From: Aradus depressus
Lineage: Eukaryota; Arthropoda; Insecta; Hemiptera; Aradidae
Assembly (NCBI GenBank): GCA_963662175.1
Contig: OY759223.1
Location: 24,467,460 to 24,531,459 of the forward strand
Reading direction: 5' to 3'
Length of the DNA stretch: 64,000 bases
Positions 688-59,281 of the stretch are shown here, piece by piece (positions within the stretch are counted from its first letter, which is position 1; each line of letters starts with the position of its first letter). Under the pieces are notes generated by a model, which saw nothing but the letters and a program-made list of their open reading frames with translations, did not search any database and was not told where the DNA came from. The translations under genes were made by a program, and so were the position numbers.

Positions 688-795
688 GAACACCCATATT
701 AATATGAAGATGGCTGATGTAGTGAGAAGTGATTATTTCGCAGGATGTCAAATATAAGGTAGTCTGACCTCTCACAGATTTTTATTAAAGTAATA

Positions 796-831
796 GCTAG
801 CCGGCTTTCGAGGTTTCCCTCATCATCAGGC
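796..831 (-). ncRNA. hammerhead-ribozyme-like motif, element A left arm
   Basis: Read on the minus strand: GC, then CTGATGA, an extra T, stem II GAGG-GAAA-CCTC with a GNRA tetraloop, then GAAA. The last A begins the self-complementary word AGCCGGCT (helix III), followed by A (position 17, the expected cleavage base) and GC, which pairs with the leading GC as stem I. All core residues of a hammerhead are present; the extra T between A9 and stem II is unusual. Stem I is only 2 bp. Confidence 0.55.
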
Positions 832-1012
832 AGTCTGATAAAAAATTTGAATAAACTAAATAATAAAAATAATAAAAAGCAGTTGTGACTCAGATGGTGG
901 ACAGGAATAACTCGTCTGTCCCCATCCATGATATTTTAAATTGTTAATGTTTGTTGTAGATTTTTATTTATTTATTTTTATTATTTAGTTTATTCAAATT
1001 TTTTATCAGACT

Positions 1013-1048
1013 GCCTGATGATGAGGGAAACCTCGAAAGTCGGCTAGC
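1013..1048 (+). ncRNA. hammerhead-ribozyme-like motif, element A right arm
   Basis: Mirror copy of the left-arm motif with the same CTGATGA core and GAGG-GAAA-CCTC stem II. One substitution turns helix III into AGTCGGCT, leaving AG/CT closing a four-base loop. Stem I is GC/GC. Confidence 0.5.
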
Positions 1049-1105
1049 TATTACTTTAATAAAAATCTGTGAGAGGTCAGACTACCTTATATTTGACATC
1101 CTGCG

Positions 1106-1705
1106 GAACACCCATGTTCCAGTATAATCCACAGAGTCCTGGTTGACATAGCTACTCCACTGAACATAAGCATATACCACGGTGTATATACATTGTATAT
1201 CACTGTAGGTATATGAACACTAGATACCCATGCTCCAGTATAATCCACCAGAGTCCTGGTTGACATAGCTACTCCACATAAGCATATACCACGGTGTATA
1301 TACATTGTATATCACTGTAGGTATATGAACACTAGATACCCATGCTCCAGTATAATCCACCAGAGTCCTGGTTGACATAGCTACTCCACATAAGCATATA
1401 CCACGGTTTATATACCACGTATACCACTGTTGGTATATGAACACTTCCCTAGATACCCATGCTCCAGTATAATCCACCAGAGTCCTGGTTGACATAGCTA
1501 CTCCGAACATAAGCATATACCACGGTTTATATACCATGTACACCACTATATGAACACTAGATACCCATGCTCCAGTATAATCCACAGAGTCCTGGTTGAC
1601 ATAGCTACTCCACTAAACTTACGAATATACCACGGTTTATATACCATGTATACCACTGTAGGTATATGAACACTGATACCCATGCTCCGGTATAATCTTC
1701 ACCAG
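1106..1705. repeat. minisatellite, ~107-117-bp unit, about 5.5 copies
   Basis: The word CCTGGTTGACATAGCTACTCC recurs five times at spacings of 107-117 bp, starting near 1138. Units differ by small indels and include degenerate ATATACCAC/GTATA palindromic segments. The array starts exactly at the target duplication of element A, so A inserted at its edge. The short reading frames across it are repeat translations. Confidence 0.9.
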
Positions 1706-2370
1706 AGCCCTCATTAACCATCCTAACACTATTAAATAATTCAACTGTTACGTGATTGAAGAACTTATATTGTTATCTGGCCTCCAGCTCTCCCTGATTA
1801 TATTATGAACACAAATTGCATTTCTCCGCAACTCTTCACTGTTTTAAATGATTACCCCCCCGGGCTCATTTTGATAAAATTGTAATTAGTCTCTTTAATT
1901 TTTTTTTTGTCCTAATTTTCAATTTGCAAAGTTAGGAATATTAGCAAATTTCAACAAGGAACAGCTGTCACAAAAGTGAATATTTTAAGAAAAGTGATTC
2001 AATGTACTTCCCCAGAACGAATTCTTGAAGGTTCAATTAAACATTTTGGCTAAAAATCAATAATTGACTTACTTAGTGGGGTTCTGAATCCTTATGTTTT
2101 TGTCAATGCATTAACCTTCGAGCGCTCGCCTGTAGTGACGTTACACCAGCGCTCGCGTGGCGGCATTTTCATCGCCCTTCACGAATCACTAGTATTTCGA
2201 TGAAAAGCCACACATACACAAATTTCAACTAAACACGTTTAAAACCTTTATTAAGGCATTGAATACCCGTTTATCCCAAGCAATGAGATCATTCATCTTT
2301 GTCATTAAAACGTGGGAAACACATCAAATAAATCATTGAACTTTAACATCAAATTATATGTGAGTCTGTA
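1706..2370. repeat. unassigned, with a fragment of repeat X at 1990-2105
   Basis: At 1990-2105 the sequence matches the start of repeat X (TGTACTTCCCCAGAACGAAT and downstream words seen at 3150, 12500 and 63700). The rest shows no recognised feature. Confidence 0.5.
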
Positions 2371-2477
2371 CTCGTTAAAGACCCCTGCCCTAGGTGAATA
2401 AAAATTTAGGATAGGCAAAATTTAGGACTCCCATAGTAGAGTCGGGCGCATGTCCACCAGAGTGACGAAAGAGCGCT
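2371..2477 (+). mobile_element. SINE fragment (3' part)
   Basis: Matches the 3' half of the window's main SINE, from CTCGTTAAAGACCCCTGCCC to GACGAAAGAGCGCT. The tRNA-like head is missing. Confidence 0.85.
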
Positions 2478-3149
2478 ATATATATTGTTTTAACTTATTA
2501 GAAGCTGATAAGATAATAAGATATTGATTTTCAGACAAAGATGAGGAGGGGATTAAACTGGAAGCTTATCACAAACACACTGATAACGATTACATAACTC
2601 TTCCTATACTTCATATAACAAAGGACGTAATGTCATTATTCCTTGTTCGAACTGTCATTCTGTCATAAATTCGATAATTCATAAAAAAATTGGATATGCC
2701 AGTTTTAATAGCAGAAATTCAAATGGAAATTGAATGGACTAAAGTACATTTTTCAAAACCACAAAATAAATTTGGGAGTGCAGAACACCTGTTGGGAACA
2801 GTTCATCAGTGAGTCATTAGCCGTGTGGTTGGTAGTGGGCACGTCACTTTACCAGGTAGTCGACATTTCGACCATCCATCAAACCCCCCCTCTTCCCACT
2901 CTCCCAGCACCACCACCTCCATTAACGCGGGATAATGTACACTTAATATTTCAAATGCAGATTGTCTGCCAGTTTATCCGAAAGAGAAAAATTATCCCTG
3001 GAGAAGTGAAATATTACAATGCAATTTATGTCAAAAAAATACATTACACTTCCATTGCTACCTGAAGGTATAGGGGAAGTTATTTAAAGAGTCAGAAACA
3101 TGTTTCTTTACTAGAATTTCATGTTTTCTGACATCTTTATTCCACTAAA
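2478..3149. other. unassigned sequence
   Basis: No recognised gene. A 111-codon frame at 2730-3065 on the plus strand has low-complexity proline runs from C-rich DNA and no domain I know, so I do not call it a gene. Confidence 0.4.
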
Positions 3150-3460
3150 ATGTACTTCCCCAGAACGAAATAATCGATTATGTTTTCGCTCCCCCTCCAA
3201 AATCTGTTTACGCTAAAATTCAACAGTTGACTTACAAAGGAGCTCCTAAATCCTCATACTAAATTTAGTGTTGCTAAATTCATTATATCGGCAGTTATTA
3301 GAGTTTTTGTGTTAAGCCTCCCCCTTAATTCCTAATTCCTTTTAGTCGATTTGGCTGAAAGTGCAATATGGTTCTGGATTCACACATAGATTTCACAGAT
3401 ACACTGACAACTTTTTTTTCTTACCGATTACATAACTTCTCCTGTAAATGCTAGATGCTC
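3150..3460 (+). repeat. repeat X copy
   Basis: Shares with other X copies the ordered words CTTCCCCAGAACGAA, CCCTCCAAAAT, TTGACTTAC, CTCATACTAAATTT, GCAGTTATTAGAGTTTTTGTG, TTAAGCCTCCCC and GATTTGGCTGAAA. Unclassified dispersed family. Confidence 0.8.
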
Positions 3461-3474
3461 TGATGAACATACGT

Positions 3475-3639: not shown

Positions 3640-4060
3640 AGTTGCCTTATTAGCTTAAAATAAGTTGAAAGAATATGACGTACCTATATATAATAAACCA
3701 ATACATGGTAATAGGATACGTCAAAAGAATTTATACATTAAGATAGCTTATAAATTAGGTTTATAACTACTTGAGTCTAACTTTATAATAAGTTGACCAT
3801 TTTTCAATATAATAAAAATTAAGATAACTATTTTTCAAAAAACTCTTCGGAAGTGTCTTTATCCCAACATATGTTTCAGGACGTTCTTACGTCCCTTCAT
3901 CAGGTCCCAATGTGCGAGACATAGAAAAGAAAAAGAAAATAATGTAAATATAACAATATATAAAAAAATAAAATGAAATAGATATATAGGTACATAGATA
4001 CATTTATAATAAGTAGATACATGTTTCAATTCATAAAAATTAAGGTAACTATTAGTCTAT
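3640..4060. mobile_element. element B with hammerhead-like motif, copy 1
   Basis: An inverted second copy lies at 57955-58270; both share the segment from GGGATAAAGACACTTCC to TAAGCTATCTTAA and beyond. A further fragment lies near 10785-10850. Copy 1 carries a hammerhead-like motif at 3865-3904 that copy 2 has lost. I could not define its ends or target duplication. Confidence 0.6.
3865..3904 (-). ncRNA. hammerhead-ribozyme-like motif, element B
   Basis: Minus strand: CTGATGA, then AGGGAC-loop-GTCCT as stem II (one bulged G), GAAA, self-complementary ACATATGT as helix III, T at position 17. Stem I keeps only its first G-C pair, so this copy is probably inactive. Confidence 0.5.
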
Positions 4061-5340: not shown

Positions 5341-5344
5341 TATG

Positions 5345-6196: not shown

Positions 6197-6427
6197 AATA
6201 GAGTCGACAGTATCTTTTCAATGTTGATGGAAATCGAGGTTTTGTCGTGTAAAATAAAATGCAAAATTTGGCCAACGTTTCGAAAACTATTTATTTTCTT
6301 CTTGAGTCATTATAAGGCCCACTCAAGTCATTATAAGGCCCTGAAGAAGAAAAATAAATAGTTTTCGAAACGTTGGCCAAATTTTGCATTTTCTTTTACA
6401 CGACAGAACCTCGATTTCCATCAACAT
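6197..6427. mobile_element. palindromic element J with hammerhead-like motif
   Basis: Near-perfect inverted arms of about 100 bp meet at 6306-6335. The left end has 24 unpaired bases. The flanks are a perfect 12-bp direct repeat, AGAAGAAAGATC, at 6185-6196 and 6428-6439. The right arm carries an intact hammerhead-like motif; the left-arm copy has a damaged core. No coding capacity. Confidence 0.8.
6337..6378 (+). ncRNA. hammerhead-ribozyme-like motif, element J right arm
   Basis: GGCC, CTGAAGA, an extra A, stem II GAAAA-loop-TTTTC, GAAA, helix III word ACGT, T at position 17, then GGCC. The outer GGCC words pair as a 4-bp stem I. Core residues match the hammerhead consensus (position 7 is A, which is allowed). 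With ACGT as the whole of helix III, folding would need a dimer or a very strained hairpin. Confidence 0.6.
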
Positions 6428-6691
6428 AGAAGAAAGATCGCTCCTACACATTCCAGCTGCTGCAAATTCTTGCAAAACACCGGACTGTATTACCAAAAAT
6501 TTATGTGGTGCCAGTCGTAGAGGAAAAGCTAACTCCGAGATAAAGCTTCTCCTTTAGACCCTAGACTGGAGGCTGGAAGTAAGTCACACTACCAGAAGGA
6601 CGGAGGTGCGGTGGACAGGAAGCTCCCCACTCTGCCAGTTGGAGCCACCCAGAGAGATAGCTTTAGCCACATTGTGTCACTTTATCTACTA

Positions 6692-8230: not shown

Positions 8231-8721
8231 GATGGTTCTCAATTATTCCTGCTCTTGATGATCTCTTGATAATGATAATAATAATGATTAGTACCTTAGG
8301 TTTGTTTGAAAATTTAATCATCACTGGAGACTACATAGATCTAAGGAAATGTATCTTCCTAAAATTAAAATTTACATAATACATGATGATATACCTCCTC
8401 TCGACGTTGCCCAATTTCGGAGCAATGTTTACATAAATATAATCAGTGATAAGAAGCGCAACAAGATGCATAACATAATATTTTGAAAATTGTTATTTAT
8501 TATGTGCAATGTATTTGGTTCCAAGCGCTACATTTCTTCAAGGATAAATAAAAGAATCAAAAACATAAATGAGTGCTATTATAAGAAGTTCATCCTCTCT
8601 GTCCAAATTAGTGTAACACATGGGTGTTCTTGAACCGGCAATCTACTTCTCCACAATGAATTAAACAATTAACTTTTCTCTCTCCCTCCAAAACTGTTTA
8701 GACTGAAGATTCTTCTGAAGG

Positions 8722-9066
8722 TTAGGTTAGGTTTTATGTCTCATGCCCGGGCTTTAACTACGAGGTCATATCGCCTACTACCAGAGCGGCTCTTTCGTCA
8801 CTCTGGTGGACATGAGCCCGACTCTACTATGGGAGTCCTAAATTTTGCCTACCCTAAATTTTTATTCACCTAGGGTAGGGGTCTTTAACGAGTACCTGAC
8901 ATCGTACAGGCCTGGGACCATCGCTTAACGTCCCATCCGAAGGACGGCATGCTTAAGTTTATTTTACCTCCCAGATAAAATAAACTAAGGGCCTCGGTCG
9001 GGTTACGAACCCACGTTCTTGAGCTCAGAAGTCAAGCACGCATACCACTGAGCTACCGGCGCCCTC
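8722..9066 (-). mobile_element. SINE, full length, telomere-like tail
   Basis: Complete copy with tRNA-like head at its right end (box B reads GGGTTCGTAACCC, diverged). On the SINE strand the tail ends AAAACCTAACCTAACC, that is (CCTAA)n, the complement of the insect telomere repeat TTAGG. Confidence 0.92.
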
Positions 9067-9282
9067 GATTCTTCTGAATCATATTAAATTTCTGTTTCTG
9101 TGAACAGATAACTCCCAATGAAATGAATATATCGACATGAAGTTTTAAAAATGTGTATCACCGGCTATGTGCTTCTCCAGAATGAGTTAATAAATTAAGG
9201 TATCATATGTGATAGTAAGATGTTGAAAGATGAGATTTCTCATAGAAATAAAAGATGTTTTCTTCCCACAGTTTTATTTTAG

Positions 9283-9324
9283 ACCAGAACTAGTTTTCAA
9301 CGCAAGAGCGTCATCATCAGTGGT
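9283..9324 (-). ncRNA. hammerhead-ribozyme-like motif, element C left arm
   Basis: Minus strand: ACCA, CTGATGA, extra T, stem II GACGC-TCTT-GCGTT, GAAA, self-complementary AACTAGTT as helix III (sharing the last A), C at position 17, TGGT. ACCA and TGGT form a 4-bp stem I. This and the element J copy are the best-preserved motifs in the window. Confidence 0.6.
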
Positions 9325-9346
9325 ACATCCCACCCATACAGCACAG

Positions 9347-9384
9347 CTGATGATGACGCAGTTGCGTTGAAAACCGGTTCTGGT
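9347..9384 (+). ncRNA. hammerhead-ribozyme-like motif, element C right arm
   Basis: CTGATGA, extra T, ACGC-AGTT-GCGT, GAAA, helix III AACCGGTT, C, TGGT. The upstream partner for stem I is lost (ACAG instead of ACCA). The helix III word differs from the left arm in its centre yet is still self-complementary. Confidence 0.5.
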
Positions 9385-9945
9385 CAAAATAAACCAGTGG
9401 GAAGACAACGTATTTTATTTCTATTGGCCAATTATGTTATCGTTCTCCTAGCCAATCGCCAATACAATGTGACTTACATAGTTTTTTCTGAATTCTCCTA
9501 CTAAATTTTATGTCGATTTATTCTCATTACATCGGTAGTTTTTAGCGTAATTCTTCTCTGTTCCTTCTCTTCGGTCAATTTTGCAGATAATTAATAGGCA
9601 CCGTCCTTATAGGGTTTTGAATTTAAATATAAAATTTTATGTTGATACATCCATTACAACGGCAGTTATTAGAGTTTTTGTGTTAAACCTCCCAACTAAT
9701 CCCCCTTCTCTTTAATCGATTTGGCTGAAAATCAATAGGTATCCTCCTTGGAGGGTTCTGGATATACTTACAAGTTTTCGTTTCGATACGTTCATTCTAT
9801 CGATAGTTATTGGGTTCACAGAAACGTACGTCCATACTGACAGATTTTTTTATTTTTATTTTTGGAATCGAGGGCTCGGAAAACTTGAAATACCCTTCAA
9901 AACTCAACATCGAGTTTTTTACCGAATACATATACTTGGTATAGC

Positions 9946-10775: not shown

Positions 10776-11650
10776 AACAATATAGGATATGTCATAAGTC
10801 ACATTAAGATAGCTTAATGAAAGCTTTTTCATTCTTAAGTGTCTTTACTATTAAACCTACTTAATTTTTAAGACAATTAAAACTTGAATACTTTTTAGTG
10901 CTTCATTCCACTGCGTATTTATAATTTAGATCAATATTTTAACAAGATCATAGCTATGTTAATATGAAGATGGCTGATGTAGTGAGAAGTGATATACTTA
11001 CCGCTACCAATAAAAATCTGTGAGAGGTCAGACTACCTTATATTTGATATCCTGTAAAATCATAGCTACGGTTTCTTTCTGCGTTTGAGCGCTCACAAAT
11101 TTCCAGTCACATATGCACAGATAGCTTTGTCGAAAAAATGGTCAAAACAGACTCGTGTATTTCCAAACGTGTAATTCCATTGAAAACTCGAATTCGGATT
11201 TTCTCACGGTTACAATACCTTATTATACTAAAGAATGTAAAGATCATAATGACAATAACTTTATACAAAATAACAATTGTAAAAATACTCATCAAATATA
11301 AAAACAATATTTTTAAGTGGAATAAGAAAGAGAAGATGTGATGTAGGTTGAAATGTCAAAGCACAGTTCGCGGTTTCAGTGGTAACTGAGTAGGGGAAAA
11401 AAGAGTGTTCAGGCACAAGAGCTAATGCGCAAGATGGCAGTCTTTCTTCACTCCTTGCTCTCTCCCGCCTCATCACACACCTTCCCTCTTAGCTCATACT
11501 TAAAGCCGGCCTAAGACCTCACCTTTGATCCTATTAACAGGAACTTGTGTATTATATAGTCTTCAGACTATGGTCAGATAATGTCAAGATGAAGGTGAGC
11601 CTGTACCTAGGGAAATGGTTAAAACGTAGTTCAGATTTTCATTAGAACCC
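10776..11650. repeat. fragments of elements B and A in unassigned sequence
   Basis: 10785-10850 resembles part of element B. 10959-11060 is an internally deleted copy of element A: its outer tail (GATGGCTGATGTAGTGAGAA) joins directly to its inner arm end (AATAAAAATCTGTGAGAGGT). The remainder is unassigned. Confidence 0.6.
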
Positions 11651-13497: not shown

Positions 13498-14097
13498 CTC
13501 TCCGACGGTTTCTATATTGTAGTTAGTTATTTAGAGCCATAAACTGAATTTAAAAATGATATTATTACCTAGTTTTTTTTTTCAGCTGTTGTGATTGGGT
13601 CAGAGTTAGCATACGGGTTGTGTTTGTAATACGAGTATGAGAGAATATTTAATAAAATACTTTGCATTCTGATATGACAAAATAAATACCCAACACATTG
13701 TGGTGTAGAAAATAAAATATATTTGAAAAAAATAATACAAATTTTATGTTAGTCATGTGTGAGGTTTTTGAACCCTCTTGTACCCTCCACCAAGAAAGTA
13801 TTGTAATCGTACCAAAATCCGAGATAGATTTATCAAAGAATTTTTATTTTTTATGATGTGCGTATGAAAGTAATTGGAATTTTTTAAGAAACAAATGGAA
13901 CAATGAACCTAAAATTTGAAAGATTTTTGCACATATCGGACGAAAATTGAAACCACTTTTAATTTACTTAAAATTATAATAATAATTTCTGATAATTTTA
14001 TTTTTCACGACGACATTTCGAGACTTTCTCACGTCCTTTCCTCAGGTCACAATGTGCGAAAAATAGAAAAGAGAAAGAAAACAAAATAACAATAACA

Positions 14098-14720: not shown

Positions 14721-14930
14721 CATGATATGTACTTCCCCAACACGAATTAATCACGAACGTTATCATTCTCCTTTCAATGCTCGAGGATAAAACTCAATAC
14801 TTGATTTACATAGTGTCTTCAGAATCCTCATACTAAATTTTGTGCCATACAATCATTATATCGTCAGTTATTAAGGTATTTTAATACTAAAAAGGAACAG
14901 GATAAAGGAATATACACATACTAAGGAATA

Positions 14931-15246
14931 ACATTCTGGGGGTATTGAGGGTCAGTCAATGATGAAAACACTATTCAAATGCCAACGTTTCGATATATTT
15001 CATATCATCATCAGCGCTATGAATATAGATGGTTGAGGAGAAGGCATGAAGACTGTGAAGTCTTACGTTCAACTCAGTTGAACGTAAGACTTCACAGTCT
15101 TCATGCCTTCTCCTCAACCATCTATATTCATAGCCCTGATGATGATATGAAATATATCGAAAGTTGGCATTTGAATAGTGTTTTCATCATTGACTGACCC
15201 TCAATACCCCCAGAGTTTTGAATTCTACAGTCGCTAGCAAACATCT
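14931..15246. mobile_element. palindromic element D, copy 1
   Basis: Inserted in the left arm of E with an 11-bp duplication, ACTAAGGAATA, at 14920-14930 and 15247-15257. Its own arms of about 140 bp are almost perfectly complementary around 15078. The right end carries an unpaired tail ending GCTAGCAAACATCT. Copy 2 is at 58837-59254. Confidence 0.85.
14981..15017 (-). ncRNA. hammerhead-ribozyme-like motif, element D1 left arm
   Basis: Minus strand: GCG, CTGATGA, T, GATAT-loop-ATATC, GAAA, ACGT, T, GGC. The first stem I pair is lost (GCG against GGC). The opposite arm at 15133-15168 has intact GCC but a one-base deletion turning GAAACGTT into GAAAGTT. Confidence 0.5.
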
Positions 15247-15307
15247 ACTAAGGAATATAAACTCCACACACTACTTGTCAATATTTTCACTATATTGGTC
15301 AGAATTA

Positions 15308-15345
15308 CCCGACTATAGTTTCGCCTGTTACGGCATCATCAAGTG
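15308..15345 (-). ncRNA. hammerhead-ribozyme-like motif, element E left arm
   Basis: Minus strand: CAC, TTGATGA (C3 mutated to T), T, stem II GCC-GTAACA-GGC, GAAA, self-complementary ACTATAGT, C at position 17, GGG. The right arm (15348-15380) keeps GTG after the cleavage position, which would pair with CAC; it lacks three core bases. Confidence 0.45.
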
Positions 15346-15658
15346 AACTGAATGCCGTAAGAGGCGAAACTATAGTCGTGTAATTTTGACCAATATAGTG
15401 AAAATATTGACAAGTAGTGTGTGGAGTTTATATTCCTTAGTGTGTGTATATTCCTTTATCCTGTTCATTATGAATTTTCACAAAGTAGACCTGGAATCAG
15501 TTCAATACTAAAAAGGAGTTTGAATTTAAATATAAAATGTCTGCTGAATAGATAAATTACGTGTTGATTTTTTCCGGCATTTTTTCCAGAGGTGTCTTCT
15601 TTTTTCTCGGAATAGATAATTAAAATACACAATTTCCTTGTCAAAATTCACTATAGGT

Positions 15659-15993
15659 TAGGTTAGGTTTTATGACTCATGCCCGGGCTTTAACTAAAAG
15701 GTCATATCGCCTACTACTAAAGCGCTCTTTCGTCACTCTGGTGGACATGAGCCCAACTCTACTGTGGGAGTCCTAAATTTTGCCTATCATAAATTTTTAT
15801 TCACCTAGGGTAGGGGTCTTTAACGAGTACCTGACATCGTACAGGCTCGGAACCATCGCTTAACGTCCCATCCGAAGGACGACGTGCTTAAGTTTATTTT
15901 ACCTCCCAGATAAAATAAACTAAGGGCCTCGGTTGGGTTTCGAACCCACGATCTTGAGCTCAGAAGACAAGCCACTGAGCTACCGGCGCCCTC
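15659..15993 (-). mobile_element. SINE, full length, inside element G
   Basis: Minus-strand copy with the (TTAGG)-type tail at its left end and tRNA-like head at its right end (box B GGGTTTCGAACCC). Short deletion in the head. Confidence 0.92.
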
Positions 15994-16065
15994 AACTTAA
16001 CTATATATTCTCAAATAGTCAACTAGTTTCGCAGTGTTAAGGCATTATAAAGAGTCACTTATATA

Positions 16066-16101
16066 ACTTGATAATGCCTTAACACGGCGAAACTGGTTGA
16101 G
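16066..16101 (+). ncRNA. hammerhead-ribozyme-like motif, element G right arm
   Basis: TTGATAA, T, stem II GCC-loop-GGC, GAAA, ACTGGT, T at position 17. The core is degraded (C3 to T, G8 to A). The same layout with helix III ACTAGT appears on the minus strand of the left arm. Confidence 0.4.
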
Positions 16102-16219
16102 TATTTAAGAATATATAGTGAAGTTTGACAAACAAATTGTGTATTTAATTATCTATTCCTAGAATGGAGCTTCACAAAGTAAATCTGGAAACCATAAATT
16201 ATTTATTTTTCCTCTTTTT

Positions 16220-16261
16220 TGACAATATTTCGGGACACTTTCACGTCCCTTCTTCTGGTCA
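16220..16261 (-). ncRNA. hammerhead-ribozyme-like motif, element F1
   Basis: Minus strand: TGAC, CAGAAGA (U4 changed to A), extra A, stem II GGGAC-loop-GTCCC, GAAA, ATAT, T at position 17, GTCA. TGAC and GTCA form a 4-bp stem I. The structure is fully paired but the U4 change should reduce or abolish cleavage. F2 at 21127-21167 has the same core. Confidence 0.5.
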
Positions 16262-16639
16262 TTATGAACCATTTTTTTGTTCATAGTGACCAGAAGAAGG
16301 GAGGTGAAAGTATCATGAAATGTTCTCCAAAAAAAATAAAAAAGAAGTTACCTCTGGGAAAAATGCCGGAAAAAATCAACATTTCATCATCCCAGGGAAG
16401 TTCAAGAAACACATACATTCATTACATCGAAAATTATTAGAGTTTTTGTGTTAAGCCTATCCCTAATCCCCCCTTCCCTTTGGCTGACTTGACTGAAAAT
16501 AAATGTCGTCGATAGAGTGTTATCGATGCACATATAAAATTTCATGTAGTTACATTCGTTCTATCGGGAGTTCTCGTGTTCATAGACGCACAGACATACA
16601 TCATTTTTTCGATACAGGAGTTTGAAAAGCATAAAATTC

Positions 16640-21083: not shown

Positions 21084-21270
21084 GCGGCATTTCTTCCAGT
21101 GGTATCTTCTTTTTTCCTTTTTTTTTTTGCAATATTTCGGGACATTTTCACGTCCCTTCTTCTGGTCACTATGAACGAATAGTGTCCCAAAATATTGTCA
21201 ATAAAGAAGACACCTCTGGAAGAAATACAGGAAAAAAATCAACATTCCAACAACCCAGAGAAGTTTAAGA
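21084..21270. mobile_element. palindromic element F, copy 2
   Basis: Flanked by 9-bp ACAAGCTTT at 21075-21083 and 21271-21279. The left end starts 13 bases inside the arm compared with copy 1, a 5' truncation of the kind made by reverse transcription. The hammerhead-like motif at 21127-21167 (minus) keeps stem II GGGAC/GTCCC but has lost most of stem I. Confidence 0.75.
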
Positions 21271-33850: not shown

Positions 33851-34458
33851 ATAGTACAATGAAAAATTGAAAATAAACATTTTCTTTTGAAGATTTTGTC
33901 TATAGTCTACTATTGTATATTGCGCCAGAATTTATTTTTATAATGTTTATTATTCATATTCCTATCCAACAACGATCGCCTGCGGGAAGAAACAGTTTAT
34001 TTTCAATTTAAAAAAAAAAATTATATTATTTTTCTTTTTCTCATTTTTAGTTAGTCGACTCATAAAGTATGTCTCAGCAAAAAAATATAAAGGAACAACA
34101 TAAAAAAATGCTAAAGCAAATAAATTATAGATACTGATGATGAGAGTTCCTTCCGAAACGTTTATATTTCTTAGATTGTAAAAACCAAAAAAAATAAATG
34201 GGAGAACAATATTGTCAAAGAGAATGTAAACAAAGAGATTGTGTCTTTGATGAGCCCTATACAAGACTAAGTCTATTGTATCGACGGCGTCACAACAAAA
34301 AGACATAAGCCACTTCTAACCAATGTTACAAGACAATAATTTAAAAAACCTACAATGTTTATTATATTATAATATTTGACATAATTACTACCTTAAATAT
34401 TGCAATAAAAATTTAGTTTTGTAAATTACATTACATTTTTTATAATAAAAATAAGTAA
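33851..34458. repeat. AT-rich sequence with a hammerhead-like relic
   Basis: Contains the motif at 34131-34165. The 114-codon minus frame at 33962-34306 is AT-driven and hydrophobic, with no recognisable family. Confidence 0.45.
34131..34165 (+). ncRNA. hammerhead-ribozyme-like relic
   Basis: ATA, CTGATGA, then TGAGAGTTCCTTCC, GAAA, ACGT, T, TAT. Stem I (ATA/TAT), the core and the ACGT helix III word are in place, but the middle no longer forms a convincing stem II. Confidence 0.35.
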
Positions 34459-42260: not shown

Positions 42261-42395
42261 ATTCCCCACCTATATATGGTAAGTTAAAGTCATCAACAGT
42301 GGCACATTTATTATTGTGTGATAAAATATAAATAATGAAAAGTAACTAGCAAATCTTAAAGCATCGGGCACAGAGTAACAAAATAAAAAATAAAA

Positions 42396-42465
42396 AATTG
42401 CTTATCCCGTCCGTACAGCATAGAGGCTAAAGGACTACAAACATTCATTCCAAATATACACAGTA
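42396..42465. repeat. inverted partner of the right end of the 87-bp array
   Basis: CCGTACAGCATAGAGGCTAA and GGACTAC match inverted the right flank at 45806-45832, and AAACATTCATTCCAAATATA matches inverted part of the array unit. The array is therefore flanked by inverted copies of its own edge. Confidence 0.8.
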
Positions 42466-42579
42466 ACTAAAAAATAAAATACAACCAAACAGCTAAAGGA
42501 ATTTTTTTGATAAAATATAGTAAATAAATATTTTATTATTACTTAATTTTTATTATTTTATGACAAAAATTCCTTAGGA

Positions 42580-45800: not shown

Positions 45801-45850
45801 ATGCCAGTAGTCCTCTAACCTCTACGCTGTACGGATATGATAAGTAAATT
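45750..45850 (-). mobile_element. second SINE-like family (tRNA-like head), fragment 1
   Basis: Minus strand: GTCCGTACAGCGTAGAGGTT-like leader, GGACTACTGGCATAGCTCAA, box B GAGGTTCAATCC. The same unit occurs at 48505-48600. It is the source of the array unit. Confidence 0.7.
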
Positions 45851-47265
45851 TTTATTTTTTTATTTTATTATTCTGTACCTTGAAGCTTTAAGATTTATTC
45901 AAGGTTTATTCAATCATAGATGTGCTACTGATGAAAATAAAACAATCGGAATCTTTTATTTCCATGAGACATATTGTCAACTCACAGAGGGTTGCCACTA
46001 TAGCTGCATATTGCCTTCCTGCCCCAGGTGCCCCCTTTTATCCGCTCCGGCTTACGTTCAAAATGAGTATTCGATTTTTAGAGAATAACGGATAAGTTTA
46101 GAAAGAGGATTTCCGGCTTTAGATTACCATATTCCAAATTCTCTTGGTTACCTGACGGGCCGGGTGACTGATTGAAACTAATTCTGCCACTAGATACCAA
46201 TTAAGATAAAATTTTATATAACCTCCTCCCCCCTCCCCGGCATTTTATGGACTAGAGATAAAAATAATCCCGACAGGCTCCGTTTGATCCCATCACACCT
46301 TGATGAAACTTTTATCAACCCCGTGAATGATTTTTTTTATTGATATTTTCACACGGATATTGATTCTATTCTCACACGTTGACTGTATTATCAATACAAA
46401 TTGTTCTGAAACTTCGAACGTTAATCAATGTTGAGGTATAGTTGCGATTTGATCATAACAGGATTTTCTTATACGAATCGTAATGGCGTCATTGGTTTTC
46501 CTTGTTTCTTTGTACAGCCTGATTCTTAGATTGAATTTCATATACCCAATAATGGGAATTAGAGGAGATGGAGGGGGTCTTTAACAAAATGGCTGGTATA
46601 AAAAGTCCACATCTATTTTATTTTTTATACTTTTTAATAAAAAATTCCGATAATAAAAATATATTTCCAAGTTCGTTGCTATGCAGGGGCGTAGACAGGA
46701 TTTTGAGCAGGGGCGGTATAGACAGCCCGCAGTTTCCGTGGTTAGCGTTGAAGACTTTTTGTTATTAATTTGGGAGACTCGGACCTCTAGAAGCTCCTCC
46801 TGAGGTAACCACTGACTGTAATACTTAAGTTGACTTTACATGAGCATCAAAAATGCAAAGCGGTGCAGCAGGAAATGCACATTTTTTCATTTTATGCATT
46901 TAGAATTAAATGTCTCAAAGCCAATAGCGTGCACTTGCTGCTGCTGCGCTTTGCATTTTTACTGCGCATGTAAAATCAGCTTTAAGAGTTAAAGTATAGT
47001 ATAAATGAAGATTTTGAGCGAGGAAATGAATTGATCGAATTCATATATATTTAAATAAATGTAATATGACTTGTTTTGTACATTTAAATTTACGTAACAG
47101 CTGATTGCTGATTCAGGAATCAGACGCACGGGAAATTTGAAGATCCTATTGGTAACTTGCAAGCAATCCATTTTTAATAAACGATTTTTTTAGTTTATTT
47201 AATTTTTATTTTGGTTTTTTGCTCTGGCCAGGGGGGGCACGTTTAAACATTACTTAGAAATATTA
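45851..47265. other. mostly unassigned; possible DNA transposon end words
   Basis: 45925-46000 has element C-like words (GATGTGCTACTGATGAAAAT). 46685-46710 (CAGGGGCGTAGACAGGAT) is a word common at ends of insect DNA transposons, and a GGCCAGGGGGGGCACG word at 47226-47241 could be the other end. Repeat Z is near 46540. No gene recognised. Confidence 0.4.
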
Positions 47266-48411: not shown

Positions 48412-48600
48412 ACCTCCTATCCGAAAGAAGACATGCTCCCGTGTATCTTAGCCTCCCAGTTAAAAAACCTAAGGGCCTCGGCCGGGTTTCGAACCTCCGG
48501 TTTATCCGGTTATAGAGAGTGAACCTCGCTATCCCCACCCCTTTGAGCTATGCCAGTAGTCCTTTAACCTTTACACTATACGGGTGGGGTAAGCAAGTTT
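48412..48600 (-). mobile_element. SINE fragment fused to the second SINE-like family
   Basis: 48412-48500 is the head-proximal body of the main SINE (CCTAAGGGCCTCGGCCGGGTTTCGAACC). At 48505-48600 it joins the second tRNA-like unit (GTGAACCTCGCTATCCCCACCCC, GAGCTATGCCAGTAGTCC). Two tRNA-like heads lie back to back. Confidence 0.75.
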
Positions 48601-48679
48601 TTTATTTTGTTAATCTGTACCTTCATGCTTTAAAATTTTTTAGTTACTCCTGATTATTAATATTTTATATTGATTCACT

Positions 48680-48790
48680 CAGATGTACCATTGATGATGC
48701 TTTGAAAACCGGTTCTGGTCAAAAATAAAACAGTGGGAAAACGTCTTTTGTTTCAATGAGAAATCTCGTTCTACAACCTTAACCTTTCTC
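48680..48790 (+). repeat. element C fragment
   Basis: GATGATGCTTTGAAAACCGG, TTCTGGTC and AAAACAGTGGGAAAACGTCT match the right arm of element C, with the stem II hairpin deleted. Confidence 0.75.
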
Positions 48791-48887: not shown

Positions 48888-49751
48888 AAAACCTATTCAG
48901 GATATGTATTACTTCTATTATCTGACGTATTACAAAAAACCTATTCAGGATATGTATTACTTCTATTATCTGACGTATTACAAAAAACCTATTCAGGATA
49001 TGTATTACTTCTATTATCTGACGTATTACAAAAAACCTATTCAGGATATGTATTACTTCTATTATCTGACGTATTACAAAAAACCTATTCAGGATATGTA
49101 TTACTTCTATTATCTGACGTATTACAAAAAACCTATTCAGGATATGTATTACTTCTATTATCTGACGTATTACAAAAAACCTATTCAGGATATGTATTAC
49201 TTCTATTATCTGACGTATTACAAAAAACCTATTCAGGATATGTATTACTTCTATTATCTGACGTATTACAAAAAACCTATTCAGGATATGTATTACTTCT
49301 ATTATCTGACGTATTACAAAAAACCTATTCAGGATATGTATTACTTCTATTATCTGACGTATTACAAAAAACCTATTCAGGATATGTATTACTTCTATTA
49401 TCTGACGTATTACAAAAAACCTATTCAGGATATGTATTACTTCTATTATCTGACGTATTACAAAAAACCTATTCAGGATATGTATTACTTCTATTATCTG
49501 ACGTATTACAAAAAACCTATTCAGGATATGTATTACTTCTATTATCTGACGTATTACAAAAAACCTATTCAGGATATGTATTACTTCTATTATCTGACGT
49601 ATTACAAAAAACCTATTCAGGATATGTATTACTTCTATTATCTGACGTATTACAAAAAACCTATTCAGGATATGTATTACTTCTATTATCTGACGTATTA
49701 CAAAAAACCTATTCAGGATATGTATTACTTCTATTATCTGACGTATTACAA
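48888..49751. repeat. tandem array, 18 perfect units of 48 bp
   Basis: 18 identical 48-bp units containing CCTATTCAGGATATGTATTA and TCTGACGTATTAC. Two frames stay open (16-residue periods KTYSGYVLLLLSDVLQ and YYKKPIQDMYYFYYLT) only because 48 is divisible by three. A T run at 48868-48885 borders it. The absence of any variant points to very recent expansion or homogenisation. Confidence 0.95.
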
Positions 49752-50639
49752 AAAATACTAAATAATTTGTCCATTCTGTAAATTATTCATGGATTTTATT
49801 TACACTATTTCTATTTAAGATATTGTGTATGGTTGTGTTATCTAATATAAGTTATTATTAGTTTTAATTTATTTTCATTACCTTAAAATATTTAGTCGAC
49901 CCGTGTGTTCTAGGATCTTGTCAAGACTGATCTCTACTATCGATATTAGTGGTCGTTTCGTATATTTTTTGGTTCTGTTTGGATTTGTTTTTTGTATTGG
50001 GTTATATTTTAAGTTTATTTATTAAATGTGCGTAGTGATTACCTATGTTACCTATGTCTGTTTTAAAGTTTAATGGTGGTTTAAGTGAAAATGAGCGAAG
50101 GCTCGAAACGTCAGGAATAACAAAAGAAACAAAATAAGGAAGTTGCGTGCTTGAACCGTTATTTAATGTAACAACGCTTCAACACATACAAAGAAAATTG
50201 GACATTTCTTATGTGACAACCTGATATTAGGGGGAATCAAGTTGGAAACTTTGAAGTGTTTAACCATTTTGTAGGACAGAGGATGAGTGATGGGGCATGT
50301 GAGAGTGTTTTGGTGTATTGTGGCCGTGATGTCCCAAGTTATTACGAGCAACATCCGTAGAGACGAGCCGATCTAATGGGTTCAGGCCTTAGCTCCAGTG
50401 TCGCCTCCTTCGCTAACTTCGACGTACTCCTCGTTATCAGCTTCCAGACGCCTTCCATCCCCTGTTTTCCTTGCTCACTTCCGTAATTGCCAATTAGAGA
50501 ACGAGCTTCTTGCTTGAATCTTGCCAACTCTGCCCTGTCACACTTCTCCTTTCAAAGTCCCTGCAGACGACTCTAGTTTTTTATCTCTATATCAGATCAA
50601 ACCCACGAACACACTCAATTTCTTACCATTTTCATTCTG
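49752..50639. other. unassigned, with a hammerhead-like relic at 50085-50115
   Basis: At 50085-50115, GTGAAAAT, GAGC-GAAG-GCTC, GAAA, ACGT, C follows the same layout as the palindromic elements, but the core is degraded and no arms are seen. 50170-50560 is unassigned. Confidence 0.4.
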
Positions 50640-50905: not shown

Positions 50906-51845
50906 TCTTATATAGAGTAAAACCACTGTCCGACGGACACCTCTCCTTACGGACAATTTTGCGAAGTATAGGAAAACAATGTATTTTTACTCCCCTCTAA
51001 CGGACGCGGACAACAAATTTTTTGACATCAAGAGATAAGTTTACCTCTCCAAAGCGGACACTTACAAGAATTTGAAAAATGTAATTTTGAATGCTTTTTA
51101 TTAGTCGTAGAATTCGCTATTTGTGAAACAGGCATTTCCAGAATTAAAGTGTAAACAAATAGTTTAGATTGCAATTTTTGTAATACAATGTTATATTAAT
51201 GTCCGTCCATTTCATTCCAGTGATAATGGCCCATAAGAGGCCGAAACGTACAGAATATTAAAAATTCCTTGGACCTATTTGGCTAATGTTTCATCCCATA
51301 CAACTAATGACTAGTTGAGTCGATTGTTTCGGAGGCTGAACGAAAATTTAGTTAATTCGCTCTAGAGAATTATATTAACCGACAACTTTTTTATTTTTTA
51401 AGTATTATAAATGTTTCTTTATTATAGTTTTTTATAATTTAATATTGTAATAAACATCTTAACAACTTTCCTTCAAATAAAAATAATAGGAAAGTAATTT
51501 TTAATTTTTCTATTATATTTTTCGCTTTAATTAAAACAAGGATAAAAAAAAGTTAAAATTTTATATATTTTTCTCTTATTCCCTTTTTATAGAATTTTGT
51601 TTATTTTTTTATTAATTTTTTTAAAAATTAAATATTATGAATTTACAAGTGCGCTGGAGAATAAAAACCTACTTTAATCTCTTCCATTTATTCGGTCCAA
51701 TTCATTTGAATGTTTTATTTCCCTGTCTGTCTGTGTGAGCATAATAATACTGTAATGCTGTGCATATGTGGCTGGAAATTTGTGAGCGCACTAAAACAGA
51801 GAATATTGTAGCTATGACCTTGTTAAAATGGTAATCTAAATTGGT
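50906..51845. repeat. DNA transposon-like end and a hammerhead-like relic
   Basis: 50925-51070 (AGTAAAACCACTGTCCGACG, GGACACCTCTC, repeated 'CGGACA') resembles a Tigger-type end. 51220-51250 reads GTGATAA, T, GGCC-CATAAGA-GGCC, GAAA, ACGT, A: a strong stem II with a degraded core. The rest is AT-rich. Confidence 0.45.
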
Positions 51846-54839: not shown

Positions 54840-57550
54840 GCTTGTTCTGGATCATCTCTATGAAGCAACTGCAGATCGATTGATAGTCACTTCGGGGCCG
54901 CAGTACCTTTTCCGTTTCCAACCTTACATAACGACCTCAAAGTTCCTTTTGTCCAGGACCTCATCAAATCCCATTTTTTCAAGTTTCACACGAACCTCTC
55001 CTTCTACAATAATCCTCTTGTCAAATCCTTATGATCATAAGCTCATCCGCACAATCCTTTAAGAAGGCTGAGGCGGTGTTGGCCTCGCGATCTACTGTAA
55101 TTTGTACTTCATATTTTTTCAAATTTTAATATTTTTTATTTATTTTATTTTATTATTTTTAGTGTGTTTTATTAATTTATTCATTTTATTTTTATTTTAT
55201 TTTTTCTCATACGGCATTTTTAAGGGAGTGCTGGTGATGACGGGATTCTCCTCTCCTGGACAGTGGATGGTTGGGCAGTGTAGTGGGAGGGTCAGCGCTG
55301 ATCTCCTGCGGCCACCTCTCCTCTCCTGGACAGTGGATGGTTGGGCAGTGTAGTGGGAGGGTCAGCGCTGATCTCCTGCGGCCACCTCTCCTCTCCTGGG
55401 CAGTGGATGGTTGGGCAGTGTAGTGGGAGGGTCAGCGCTGATCTCCTGCGGCCACCTCTCCTCTCCTGGACAGTGGATGGTTGGGCAGTGTAGTGGGAGG
55501 GTCAGCGCTGATCTCCTGCGGCCACCTCTCCTCTCCTGGACAGTGGATGGTTGGGCAGTGTAGTGGGAGGGTCAGCGCTGATCTCCTGCGGCCACCTCTC
55601 CTCTCCTGGACAGTGGATGGTTGGGCAGTGTAGTGGGAGGGTCAGCGCTGATCTCCTGCGGCCACCTCTCCTCTCCTGGACAGTGGATGGTTGGGCAGTG
55701 TAGTGGGAGGGTCAGCGCTGATCTCCTGCGGCCACCTCTCCTCTCCTGGACAGTGGATGGTTGGGCAGTGTAGTGGGAGGGTCAGCGCTGATCTCCTGCG
55801 GCCACCTCTCCTCTCCTGGACAGTGGATGGTTGGGCAGTGTAGTGGGAGGGTCAGCGCTGATCTCCTGCGGCCACCTCTCCTCTCCTGGACAGTGGATGG
55901 TTGGGCAGTGTAGTGGGAGGGTCAGCGCTGATCTCCTGCGGCCACCTCTCCTCTCCTGGACCGTGGATGGTTGGGCAGTGTAGTGGGAGGGTCAGCGCTG
56001 ATCTCCTGCGGCCACCTCTCCTCTCCTGGACAGTGGATGGTTGGGCAGTGTAGTGGGAGGGTCAGCGCTGATCTCCTGCGGCCACCTCTCCTCTCCTGGA
56101 CAGTGGATGGTTGGGCAGTGTAGTGGGAGGGTCAGCGCTGATCTCCTGCGGCCACCTCTCCTCTCCTGGACAGTGGATGGTTGGGCAGTGTAGTGGGAGG
56201 TTCAGCGCTGATCTCCTGCGGCCACCTCTCCTCTCCTGGACAGTGGATGGTTGGGCAGTGTAGTGGGAGGGTCAGCGCTGATCTCCTGCGGCCACCTCTC
56301 CTCTCCTGGACAGTGGATGGTTGGGCAGTGTAGTGGGAGGGTCAGCGCTGATCTCCTGCGGCCACCTCTCCTCTCCTGGACAGTGGATGGTTGGGCAGTG
56401 TAGTGGGAGGGTCAGCGCTGATCTCCTGCGGCCACCTCTCCTCTCCTGGACAGTGGATGGTTGGGCAGTGTAGTGGGAGGGTCAGCGCTGACCTCTCCTC
56501 TCCTGGACAGTGGATGGTTGGGCAGTGTAGTGGGAGTGTCAGCGCTGATCTCCTGCGGCCACCTCTCCTCTCCTGGACAGTGGATGGTTGGGCAGTGTAG
56601 TGGGAGGGTCAGCGCTGATCTCCTGCGGCCACCTCTCCTCTCCTGGACAGTGGATGGTTGGGCAGTGTAGTGGGAGGGTCAGCGCTGATCTCCTGCGGCC
56701 ACCTCTCCTCTCCTGGACAGTGGATGGTTGGGCAGTGTAGTGGGAGGGTCAGCGCTGATCTCCTGCGGCCACCTCTCCTCTCCTGGACAGTGGATGGTTG
56801 GGCAGTGTAGTGGGAGGGTCAGCGCTGACCTCTCCTCTCCTGGACAGTGGATGGTTGGGCAGTGTAGTGGGAGGGTCAGCGCTGATCTCCTGCGGCCACC
56901 TCTCCTCTCCTGGACAGTGGATGGTTGGGCAGTGTAGTGGGAGGGTCAGCGCTGATCTCCTGCGGCCACCTCTCCTCTCCTGGACAGTGGATGGTTGGGC
57001 AGTGTAGTGGGAGGGTCAGCGCTGATCTCCTGCGGCCACCTCTCCTCTCCTGGACAGTGGATGGTTGGGCAGTGTAGTGGGAGGGTCAGCGCTGATCTCC
57101 TGCGGCCACCTCTCCTCTCCTGGACAGTGGATGGTTGGGCAGTGTAGTGGGAGGGTCAGCGCTGATCTCCTGCGGCCACCTCTCCTCTCCTGGACAGTGG
57201 ATGGTTGGGCAGTGTAGTGGGAGGGTCAGCGCTGATCTCCTGCGGCCACCTCTCCTCTCCTGGACAGTGGATGGTTGGGCAGTGTAGTGGGAGGGTCAGC
57301 GCTGATCTCCTGCGGCCACCTCTCCTCTCCACTGGTGCTGTCCTCATTGAGTTTCTTTATTTTGATTTTGATTATTTAAATTTATTAAGATATTTTTTTA
57401 GTTGTGTATCTCTTTTATTTTATGGTTTCTGTTTATTCATTATGTTTTAAATATGTATTTTGTATTACTTATTATATTACCATGTCTTCTTATAGTCATA
57501 ACTTCTGCTTATTGTTATTTTTTTTGTACACATTGTAGAATAAATTAATT
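54840..57550 (+). mobile_element. Jockey-like LINE 3' end with a 70-bp array in its 3' region
   Basis: 54900-55100 encodes the decayed C-terminus of a LINE protein (VPFVQDLIKSHFFKFHTNLS, NNPLVKSL, then RRLRRCWPRDLL). It continues into the GC-rich 70-bp array and an AT-rich 3' sequence ending with AATAAA near 57540. The copy at 33280-33850 shares both flanks of the array but only one degenerate unit. Confidence 0.7.
55247..57335. repeat. GC-rich tandem array, ~30 units of 70 bp
   Basis: The unit CTCTCCTGGACAGTGGATGG + TTGGGCAGTGTAGTGGGAGG + GTCAGCGCTGATCTCCTGCG + GCCACCTCTC repeats at 70 bp. Two 57-bp units (starting at 56461 and 56798) share the same 13-bp loss, implying block duplication. 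Single variants occur near 55398, 55962, 56202 and 56537. Each unit contains the 10-bp palindrome TCAGCGCTGA. Frames across it are not real genes. Confidence 0.97.
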
Positions 57551-57552
57551 GA

Positions 57553-57875
57553 GGGCGCCGGTAGCTCAGTGGTATGCGTGTTTGACTTCTGAGATCAAGC
57601 TGAGGCCCTTAGTTTATTTTATCTGGGAGGTGAAATAAACTTAAGCACGCCGTCCTTCGGATGGGACGTTAAGCGCTAATCCCGAGCCTGTACGATGTCA
57701 GGTACTCGTTAAAGACCCCTGCCCTAGGTGAATAAAAATTTAGAGTAGACAAAATTTAGGACTTCCACAGTAGAGTCGGACTCATGTCCACCAGAGTGAC
57801 GAAAGAGCGCTGTGGTTGTAGAGGAGATGACCTCGTAGTTAAAGCCCGGGCATGAGTCATAAAACCTAAACCTAA
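57553..57875 (+). mobile_element. SINE, box B deleted
   Basis: Plus-strand copy with head GGGCGCCGGTAGCTCAGTGG; box B is removed (GAGATCAAGCTGAGGCCC). It ends GAGTCATAAAACCTAAACCTAA. Confidence 0.92.
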
Positions 57876-57954
57876 ATTGCTGGGGAAGTACATAGCAGAT
57901 GATTTGGCAGCAATGAAGAACCATCTTGGCAAAAATATTGTCCCCTATGAACAA

Positions 57955-58270
57955 TAGTTGAGGGATAAAGACACTTCCGAAGAGTATTTTTTGAAAAATA
58001 GTTATCTTAATTTTTATTATATTGAAAAATGTGTCTACTTATTATGAACGTATCTTTTATTATTATTATTATTTTATATATACTCATATATTTTTAAGTA
58101 TTTATTTGTACAGTTTTTATTAATTTCATTTTACTTTTTTTAATTTTTTTTTGTTACTACTAATCATAGATGTGTTAGACTCAAGTAGTTATAAATCTAA
58201 TTTATAAGCTATCTTAAGGTATAAGTTCATTTGACGTATCCTATTGCCAGGTATTGGTTTATCGGAAATG
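57955..58270. mobile_element. element B, copy 2
   Basis: Inverted relative to 3640-4060; starts at GGGATAAAGACACTTCC, just beyond where the hammerhead-like motif would be. It ends CAGGTATTGGTTTAT. Confidence 0.7.
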
Positions 58271-58824
58271 AATTTATTATTATTAATACGTTATCACTAT
58301 TTCTATAACTTGGCATTACCTTTTACCTGATCGCGTCTTCTCCAGTATTGCATACTTCATCCTCTCAGAATAAGGACTTACTCCGTTTCAAGGAAATTGG
58401 CTGAACTTATCTGAAATGAATTTTGAAGAAAATATTTCAATACATTCCAATGCTAGACAGAAAAATTAATTTCTTGTAAGGAAATATGCGTTTAATTTCA
58501 CAATTAATTAGTAGGTATATAAGATAAATAGAATGATGATAATTATTACTATACACGCGATTAATTATAATACAAAATTAAAATTTTAGGTGTCACTAAT
58601 TATTCTGAAATTTAGACACAGAAAAATGAATTACAATTTTCTGATACACGCAATTCGTGTATCTTTCTAATTTATCTACTTTTCGTTTATGACAGTTACA
58701 ATTCTTACGCCCATTTGCAAAATAGGATCTGTCCATTAAACGAAAGTTTTTCAGCAAACAATAAAAAACAAATATCCTGCTTTTATTTAACAATAACGGA
58801 AAACTATATAAAAAAATACTAAAC
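58271..58824. other. unassigned sequence
   Basis: AT-rich; the 89-codon minus frame at 58596-58865 overlaps the end of element D2 and has no recognisable family. Confidence 0.4.
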
Positions 58825-58914
58825 AATATTAGTATTAGATGTTTGCTAGCGACTGTAGAATTCAAAATTCTGGGGGTATTGAGGGTCAGTCAATGATGAA
58901 AACACTATTCAAAT

Positions 58915-58951
58915 GCCAACGTTTCGATATATTTCATATCATCATCAGGGC
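58915..58951 (-). ncRNA. hammerhead-ribozyme-like motif, element D2 left arm
   Basis: Minus strand: GCC, CTGATGA, T, stem II GATAT-loop-ATATC, GAAA, ACGT, T at position 17, GGC. Stem I GCC/GGC and all core residues are intact. Confidence 0.6.
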
Positions 58952-59172
58952 TAACAAACTTCATCCCTTCTCCTCAACCATCTATATTCATAGTAAGTTT
59001 CCTTGTTTTTCATCAATGTGTATATGTATGTGTATGTATATGGATGTATATTTATGTATATATGTATTTATGTGGATTTGTGTATGTGTGAATGTATATT
59101 TATGTACCTATATATAATTTTAATCAATCACTCATTATATTTTTGTAATCTTGATTCCCCCATGTTTGTTAG

Positions 59173-59209
59173 GCCCTGATAATGTTATGAAATATATCGA
59201 AACGTTGGC
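59173..59209 (+). ncRNA. hammerhead-ribozyme-like motif, element D2 right arm
   Basis: GCC, CTGATAA (G8 changed to A), T, weakened stem II, GAAA, ACGT, T, GGC. Stem I is intact; the G8 change should inactivate it. Confidence 0.5.
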
Positions 59210-59281
59210 ATTTGAATAGTGTTTTCATCATTGACTGACCCTCAATACCCCCAGAATATTAGTATTGTTTACAAACTCTTG

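Follow-up and report, generated by a model that had tools for sequence, protein, structure and literature searches.

How did a series of short palindromes, belonging to several sequence families, come to carry the layout of a hammerhead ribozyme in the genome of Aradus depressus? To address this question we examined a stretch of 64 kb, free of N, from contig OY759223.1 (hereafter the window; its elements, E1 to E12, are collected in table 1), and searched the genome of 698 Mb in 74 contigs. Very likely the palindromes are insertions of Penelope-like elements (PLEs), an origin established for the one at 698-1105 and likely for the other families. Each would consist of two head-to-head copies of the hammerhead-bearing end of the RNA, made as both nicked strands of the target primed on sense PLE RNA. 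The palindromic form would then follow from the way in which the copy was made.

What ties the palindromes to PLEs? A genome-wide search for the GIY-YIG domain gave 1,852 candidates; the 150 that were scored all lay above the cut-off, with open frames of up to 859 amino acids, and 20 of these listed loci (those with long frames and those in pairs) were picked by hand for study. The 859-residue frame, at locus L060, contains both a reverse transcriptase (RT) domain (RVT_1, 1.7e-12) and the GIY-YIG domain (1.7e-6). The arms of E1 are 93-98% identical to L060, its hammerhead motif recurs unchanged in L060, L061, L072 and L073, and its centre encodes the C-terminal 21 residues and the stop codon of the L060 protein. 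We conclude that E1 is a PLE insertion. The pointer to Penelope in the original prediction is borne out. Its new class of tiny palindromic elements is not supported: E1 is itself a short PLE insertion in head-to-head form, and the other elements are built in the same way.

If the palindromes are insertions, are their two ends alike? We assembled 61 sequences of the E7/E12 family: 39 and 20 genome copies, and the two of the window. For the first set 40 of 1,045 candidates were scored, all at 100% over a 115-nt query; one was E12 and the other 39 were used. For the second, 40 of 451 candidates were scored, and we used 20 of the 24 matches at 100% that lay outside the first set. Two arms and a target duplication of 8-15 bp (mode 12, 90% A+T) were present in 36 of the 61. 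Exactly one arm bears the tail in 35 of these 36; in none do both, and in one (L098) neither does. In both arms the outer, 3′ end is fixed, whereas the inner, 5′ end varies. Their start sites differ: in 35 copies the tail arm extends to unit position 110 or further, whereas the tail-less arm ends some 30 nt upstream, at 85-89 in 28 of 36 (the remainder at 53, 67, 75, 79, 80, 93, 93 and 96). Among nine PLE-bearing pairs, seven (L060, L065, L067, L068, L075, L077 and L078, the last in repeated flanks) have a duplication of at least 12 bp and 34-57 nt extra on one side only; L071 fits as well, with a 9-bp duplication, and L072 has no duplication. The tail of about 30-40 bp on one end that marks PLEs is found in 35/36 E7/E12 copies and in 8/9 PLE-bearing pairs.

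Within the window, those palindromes that could be delimited by eye have about 25-45 nt at one end that the other end lacks, and this stretch is alike within families. Exact target duplications of 9-14 bp flank seven window elements (E1, E2, E4, E7, E8, E11 and E12), so that the short duplication of variable length, another PLE trait, is present too. The outermost positions given in the original prediction, 698 and 59254, proved to be exact element ends, adjoining duplications of 10 and 12 bp. A PLE of Anolis starts reverse transcription at two internal sites, its tail being the stretch between them, and its enzyme is able in vitro to nick and extend each of the two target strands (PMC11167929).

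On which template were the arms made? The 180-nt intron of E12 (GTAAGT...TTAG) is precisely absent from both arms of E7, which are spliced and of equal reach (169). In the E5 family the copy at 48520-48790 has GTAAGCAAG...CACTCAG, where 9352-9195 has joined exons; in the E1 family the coding copy L060 has GTATGTTT...TTTTGTAG, where E1 has joined exons. Given this precise GT-AG removal in three families, we conclude that spliced sense RNA was the template of the E7 arms, the E1 arms and the left arm of E5. The possibility that the right arm of E5 is an unspliced partner was rejected: the letters before its CTGATG correspond to exon 1 of that left arm in reverse, and the right arm is therefore simply truncated. 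An intron in the 5′ region, a feature of PLEs, is kept in many copies.

The two arms of a copy agree in this respect. Among the 20 E7/E12 pairs for which the splicing of both arms is known, 16 are unspliced, four are spliced and none is mixed, an agreement that chance would give once in 4,845. Where both arms reach the intron end, its variant (labelled by best BLAST hit) matches between them in 13 of 14 copies, L021 being the one that differs. None of the seven spliced copies with two arms extends further than 169 nt from the tail end; this point, between TTAG and TTGAACG, is likely to be the transcription start; unspliced arms extend to 452 and beyond. The shared end at 169 is not imposed by a short ruler, since one with 560 nt of upstream sequence was used for the spliced arms as well.

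Could one arm have been copied from the other? The arms meet at the centre in 27 of the 61 E7/E12 sequences, and here their lengths can be compared. A difference of more than 12 nt favours the tail-less arm in 12 copies and the tail arm in nine, and is absent in six; the excess of the tail-less arm reaches 225 nt (271 against 46 in L085; 328 against 123 in E12). A fold-back copy cannot outreach its template arm, nor can the tail derive from a tail-less arm, so that in 12 of the 27 copies two starts are needed. The orientation of neighbours was also recorded. Two-sided priming from fixed 3′ starts predicts that tail-to-tail pairs should be lacking, and none was seen: GIY-YIG matches within 10 kb of one another (150 listed of 1,852 candidates) form 14 head-to-head and six tandem pairs, while among the matches listed we counted by eye 15 head-to-head pairs and one tandem pair for E5 and seven head-to-head and no tandem pairs for E7/E12. 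The tandem or head-to-head order of pseudo-long terminal repeats (pLTRs) that is characteristic of PLEs is thus present.

How might such copies arise? The PLE protein would nick both strands of the target, and at each of the two fixed start sites on sense PLE RNA one nick would prime reverse transcription. The two complementary DNAs (cDNAs), copied from a single RNA molecule or from transcripts of a single source locus, would be joined in the middle. Whether a stricter, handed rule applies seems to us a question with even chances either way: the nicked strands would always use different starts, the tail site for one and a site about 30 nt upstream for the other, and a paired enzyme would copy one RNA twice, so that the palindrome would be the normal two-sided outcome and the tail the footprint of the first enzyme on its RNA. 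A loop-less stem III that pairs two template RNAs is less likely, since splicing state and intron variant agree between the arms of a copy, an agreement that points to a single RNA or a single source locus.

Other origins can be imagined. For Penelope, self-priming was put forward in 2013, with an antisense RNA as template (PMC3846280): one cDNA folds back and copies itself. In its favour, the arms agree in splicing, and they end almost equally in six of the 27 copies. However, one arm lacks the tail in 35/36 copies; in 12/27 the tail-less arm reaches further 5′, so that neither arm could have been copied from the other; and an antisense template does not explain introns removed in the sense orientation. 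We consider this origin unlikely. Still less probable is a self-standing class of tiny palindromic elements with a ribozyme in both arms, moving as such. Its appeal lies in the conserved ribozyme layout and in sheer numbers (1,045 first-look candidates for E7/E12 and 1,703 for E5, 40 of each scored), but E1 encodes part of a PLE protein and differs little from a coding PLE, the arm lengths and centres of E7/E12 vary from copy to copy, some copies being one-armed, and palindromic transcripts are predicted to fold up.

Metazoan retrozymes are non-autonomous elements that spread as small circular RNAs excised by tandem hammerheads. They share with the window elements a small size, a type I hammerhead and a suggested helper role of PLE enzymes (PMC7229834, PMC7761336), and E3 (3693-4053), where a direct repeat surrounds the motif, could be of this kind. 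The arms, however, stand head to head and not as tandem monomers, and 50 of 54 cross the predicted cleavage site, so that the templates of these 50 were not monomers cut there; as a general explanation retrozymes are highly improbable. Miniature DNA transposons with terminal inverted repeats, bearing the motif by chance, would account for inverted arms and short target duplications, yet we find this barely credible given an extra tail at one end only in 35/36 copies, duplications that vary from 8 to 15 bp where symmetric ends and a fixed length would be expected, and arms that are copies of spliced RNA.

Several observations weigh against two-sided priming on sense PLE RNA, the explanation we prefer. 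The E1 family is the only one tied to a coding PLE, and the joint presence of RT and GIY-YIG domains in an autonomous element, which defines PLEs, holds for this family only; E4, E5, E7/E12, E8/E9 and E10/E11 are assigned by anatomy. No coding partner for the other window families was found among loci L048-L079, where E5, E7 and E8 have no nucleotide match and E4, E9-E11, E3, E6 and X34 have scattered matches only. A 927-residue frame beside the E7-type copy L047, tried as the coding PLE of E7/E12, belongs to a long interspersed nuclear element (LINE) with a different endonuclease and was rejected. The E7/E12 copies were drawn from matches at 100% and are therefore young, old copies being under-represented. 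L098 lacks the tail, and 25 of the 61 copies do not combine two arms with a duplication. In the window, no clear duplication flanks E9, and E5 and E10 have imperfect ones. Between the arms of a copy the 5′ ends show no overall correlation (Spearman 0.17, P 0.33), although in 10 of 36 pairs they fall within 15 nt of each other, against 3.9 expected (P 0.002), an excess due in part to the end shared by spliced arms. One E5 pair among the matches listed lies on the same strand. Finally, the agreement of the arms in splicing could also stem from intronless source loci.

What, then, of the ribozyme? Our strict descriptor demanded an exact CTGANGA, one extra base, a stem II of at least three pairs, GAAA, a loop-less self-complementary word, H17 and a stem I of at least two pairs. 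It matched five sites of four families in the window, against a mean of 0.02 (maximum 1) in 60 dinucleotide shuffles. With zero or two extra bases after CTGANGA there was no site in the 64 kb. With one extra base and one core mismatch tolerated there were six sites of five families against 0.10. We conclude that the single extra base is a real and constant property. The core is otherwise that of a type I hammerhead, with three stems, A15.1-U16.1 and H17; the canonical core has no base inserted after A9. The layout described in the original prediction was thereby recovered, but its tally of at least ten sites in about seven families falls to these five in four, the remaining places each lacking one part (stem I in the 3.9-kb copy and C3 in the 15.3-kb copy, for example). 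Nor do both arms generally carry the ribozyme, as it had held: under the strict descriptor this is true in the window of the 698-1105 element only, one arm being truncated or mutated within the motif elsewhere (the left in 6197-6427, the right in 9210-9432 and 21084-21270). The Rfam models, to which it had pointed as a check, gave no hammerhead in the window at the gathering score or at E ≤ 10; miRNA and other Rfam matches there all fell under their gathering scores and were discarded.

Does the fold show covariation? A MAFFT alignment of ten motifs left their stems out of register, and the motifs were therefore parsed by hand, with one strand of E8 borrowed from its other arm. Across 12 families stem I has 40 pairs within its own family against 15.0 ± 3.9 across families, and stem II is paired in 11.6 of 12 against 8.1 ± 0.6, a comparison that is partly circular because most families were chosen by a descriptor that demands pairing. 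Less circular is the finding that 19 of the 20 loci taken from GIY-YIG protein matches (hand-picked from 150 listed) hold the motif, always with one extra base. The conserved RNA layout of the original prediction holds up.

Would the ribozyme act in the inserted copies? Stem III is a loop-less self-complementary word, which a monomer can hardly close, so that a dimer is expected; small PLE hammerheads are said to cleave as dimers (PMC7761336). Since 50 of 54 arms extend beyond the predicted cleavage site, the inserted RNAs were uncut at this point, which accords with the Anolis PLE, for which hammerhead cleavage is not needed for insertion in vitro (PMC11167929). Cleavage therefore does not seem to be a step of insertion. 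Whole-palindrome transcripts of five elements are predicted to fold on themselves into a long hairpin, with 64-91% of bases paired, and the ribozyme would be hidden in it. We assign the hammerhead to the RNA made by the active element, and predict that cleavage, if any, would occur in tandem or paired PLE transcripts, not in the palindromic copy.

How do these insertions compare with known systems? For Penelope, pLTRs standing head to head, a single tail, short duplications and retained introns have been described; whether inverted insertions originate by self-priming on an antisense template or from an unspliced sense transcript was left undecided there (PMC3846280, 2013). Our elements resemble Pen2a of Adineta, with an open reading frame for RT and GIY-YIG, pLTRs in tandem or head to head, a 31-bp tail at one inverted pLTR, duplications of 8-10 bp, palindromic junctions and introns (PMC3846280). 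In contrast, the window copies are 0.1-0.9 kb long and without an open reading frame (except for the 21-codon remnant in E1); PLEs are described as rare in Adineta, whereas here all 40 scored matches of one family were at 100%; and the word hammerhead is absent from the Pen2a paper (PMC3846280). Poseidon PAc of Anolis is similar in the internal starts that define its tail, in the nicking and extension of both strands in vitro and in its dispensable hammerhead cleavage, and the position of its start codon at stem II suggests that it may have the same extra base (PMC11167929). In L060, by contrast, the ATG of the motif opens a short frame only, and the first Met of the protein frame lies about 100 nt further on; since some families, moreover, have CTGAAGAAG, the idea that the extra base serves a start codon was rejected.

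In LINE-1 twin priming two nicks each prime a cDNA, which leads to an inversion inside one insertion; here, on the other hand, both arms cover the same RNA end from fixed start sites. Small type I hammerhead variants of PLEs, the subject of Lunse 2017 and Cervera 2014, reportedly have a very short stem III and are expected to work as dimers; ours have one base between A9 and stem II in every parsed family, which may set them apart. Minimal type I motifs are dispersed in animal genomes (PMC7761336). A limited search of the literature on head-to-head or twin priming in PLEs found nothing on this point. To the known systems the present analysis adds a counted one-tail rule, spliced sense templates, the agreement between arms and a length test against fold-back.

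Table 1. Elements, hammerhead sites and palindromes of the window (duplications are target duplications; a dot marks elements without a single strand).
Feature	Position	Strand	Description
E1	698..1105	.	two-armed PLE insertion, tail on left arm
E1 target duplication	688-697 and 1106-1115		GAACACCCAT, 10 bp
E1 left-arm hammerhead	796..831	-	identical in L060, L061, L072, L073
E1 right-arm hammerhead	1013..1048	+	
E1 centre	882..947	+	last 21 codons and stop of PLE RT-endonuclease frame (VVTQMVDRNNSSVPIHDILNC*)
E2	10957..11058	.	short E1-family copy without ribozyme; 10-bp duplication ATCATAGCTA
E3	3693..4053	-	non-palindromic relative; hammerhead-like motif at about 3862-3908, poor stem I
E4	6197..6427	.	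two-armed, 12-bp duplication AGAAGAAAGATC, tail left; left arm truncated within ribozyme core
E4 right-arm hammerhead	6337..6378	+	
E5	9210..9432	.	two-armed; left arm spliced; right arm begins at CTGATG
E5 duplication			imperfect AATTAAGGTATC/AATTATGTTATC, 10/12 by eye; no exact one found
E5 left-arm hammerhead	9283..9324	-	
E6	14007..14050	-	hammerhead-like motif; related to E3, E10, E11
E7	14931..15245	.	near-perfect palindrome, 12-bp duplication TACTAAGGAATA, tail right
E8	14897..15503	.	two-armed, 14-bp duplication AATACTAAAAAGGA; E7 nested in left arm
E9	15604-16164		nested in an arm of E10; no clear duplication
E10	15558..16411	.	two-armed; imperfect duplication 10/13 by eye, no exact one
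E10 hammerhead	16220..16261	-	one core mismatch, U4 to A
E11	21084..21270	.	two-armed, 9-bp duplication ACAAGCTTT, tail right; right arm truncated in stem II
X34 hammerhead-like motif	34131..34165	+	one stem II mismatch
E12	58837..59254	.	two-armed, 12-bp duplication AATATTAGTATT, tail left; longer unspliced arm right
E12 left-arm hammerhead	58915..58951	-	
E12 right-arm intron	58993..59172	+	GT-AG, 180 nt; exactly missing in both E7 arms
Strict hammerhead sites	796-831-, 1013-1048+, 6337-6378+, 9283-9324-, 58915-58951-		exact descriptor
Hammerhead-like places	near 3862-3908-, 14007-14050-, 15297-15370, 16000-16110, 34131-34165+		recognisable, one part missing
Palindromes (inverted-repeat search, among others)	736-1108, 6212-6438, 9242-9424, 14935-15214, 15247-15441, 15994-16125, 16206-16342, 58864-59260		

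Some further copies deserve mention. In the right arm of E9 (15994-16125) U3 and A8 of the core replace C3 and G8, so that the 3-8 pair would persist; the left arm has both changes too, but is decayed. Further GAAACGT motifs with stem II hairpins and a core of GTGANAA, at 50085-50115 and 51220-51257, are likely to be decayed relatives. X3 (57962-58262), a relative of E3, begins near the predicted cleavage site and has by eye no duplication. At 42250-45990 an 87-bp tandem array (37 copies, 42572-45794) has unspliced relatives of the E5 family on either side, in head-to-head orientation; the arrangement looks as though a satellite had grown in the centre of a PLE insertion. Outside the window, a very short palindromic element of another family, with a 9-bp duplication, lies within an E1-type arm (L071:4046-4152), and four tandem PLE pairs (L060, L073, G000:C3:26757893 and G000:C4:21900611) have an exact period of 2,819 bp and some long open frames, from which this PLE family looks recent.

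The window also contains sequences of other kinds. The best named relatives of an RT fragment at 31851-32645 are Periplaneta proteins (49 and 55% identity); those of spider, bug and midge rank lower, and metagenome proteins score higher. A mariner-like transposase frame of 351 amino acids (DDE_3) at 17261-18316 has no internal stop. An abundant short interspersed nuclear element (SINE) with a tRNA-like head (GGTAGCTCAGTGGTATGCGTGCTTG) is found at 8719-9066, 15655-15993 and other places; a SINE word had no match in the viral contigs searched. Further tandem arrays, at 48888-49755, 55247-57330 and 21889-22724, have periods of 48, 70 and 207 bp.

What do these insertions mean for PLEs? The many young copies in one genome (all 40 scored of 1,045 candidates at 100%) are a natural record of insertion products, and they argue for two separate starts on one kind of sense RNA and against antisense fold-back. 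They also suggest that scars of such PLE insertions account for part of the minimal hammerheads dispersed in animal genomes; the Rfam models missed the form with one extra base here. The rule of one tail per two-armed copy is simple and can be tested in vitro. If true, the handed rule would settle the question of 2013 in favour of sense RNA and two-sided priming.

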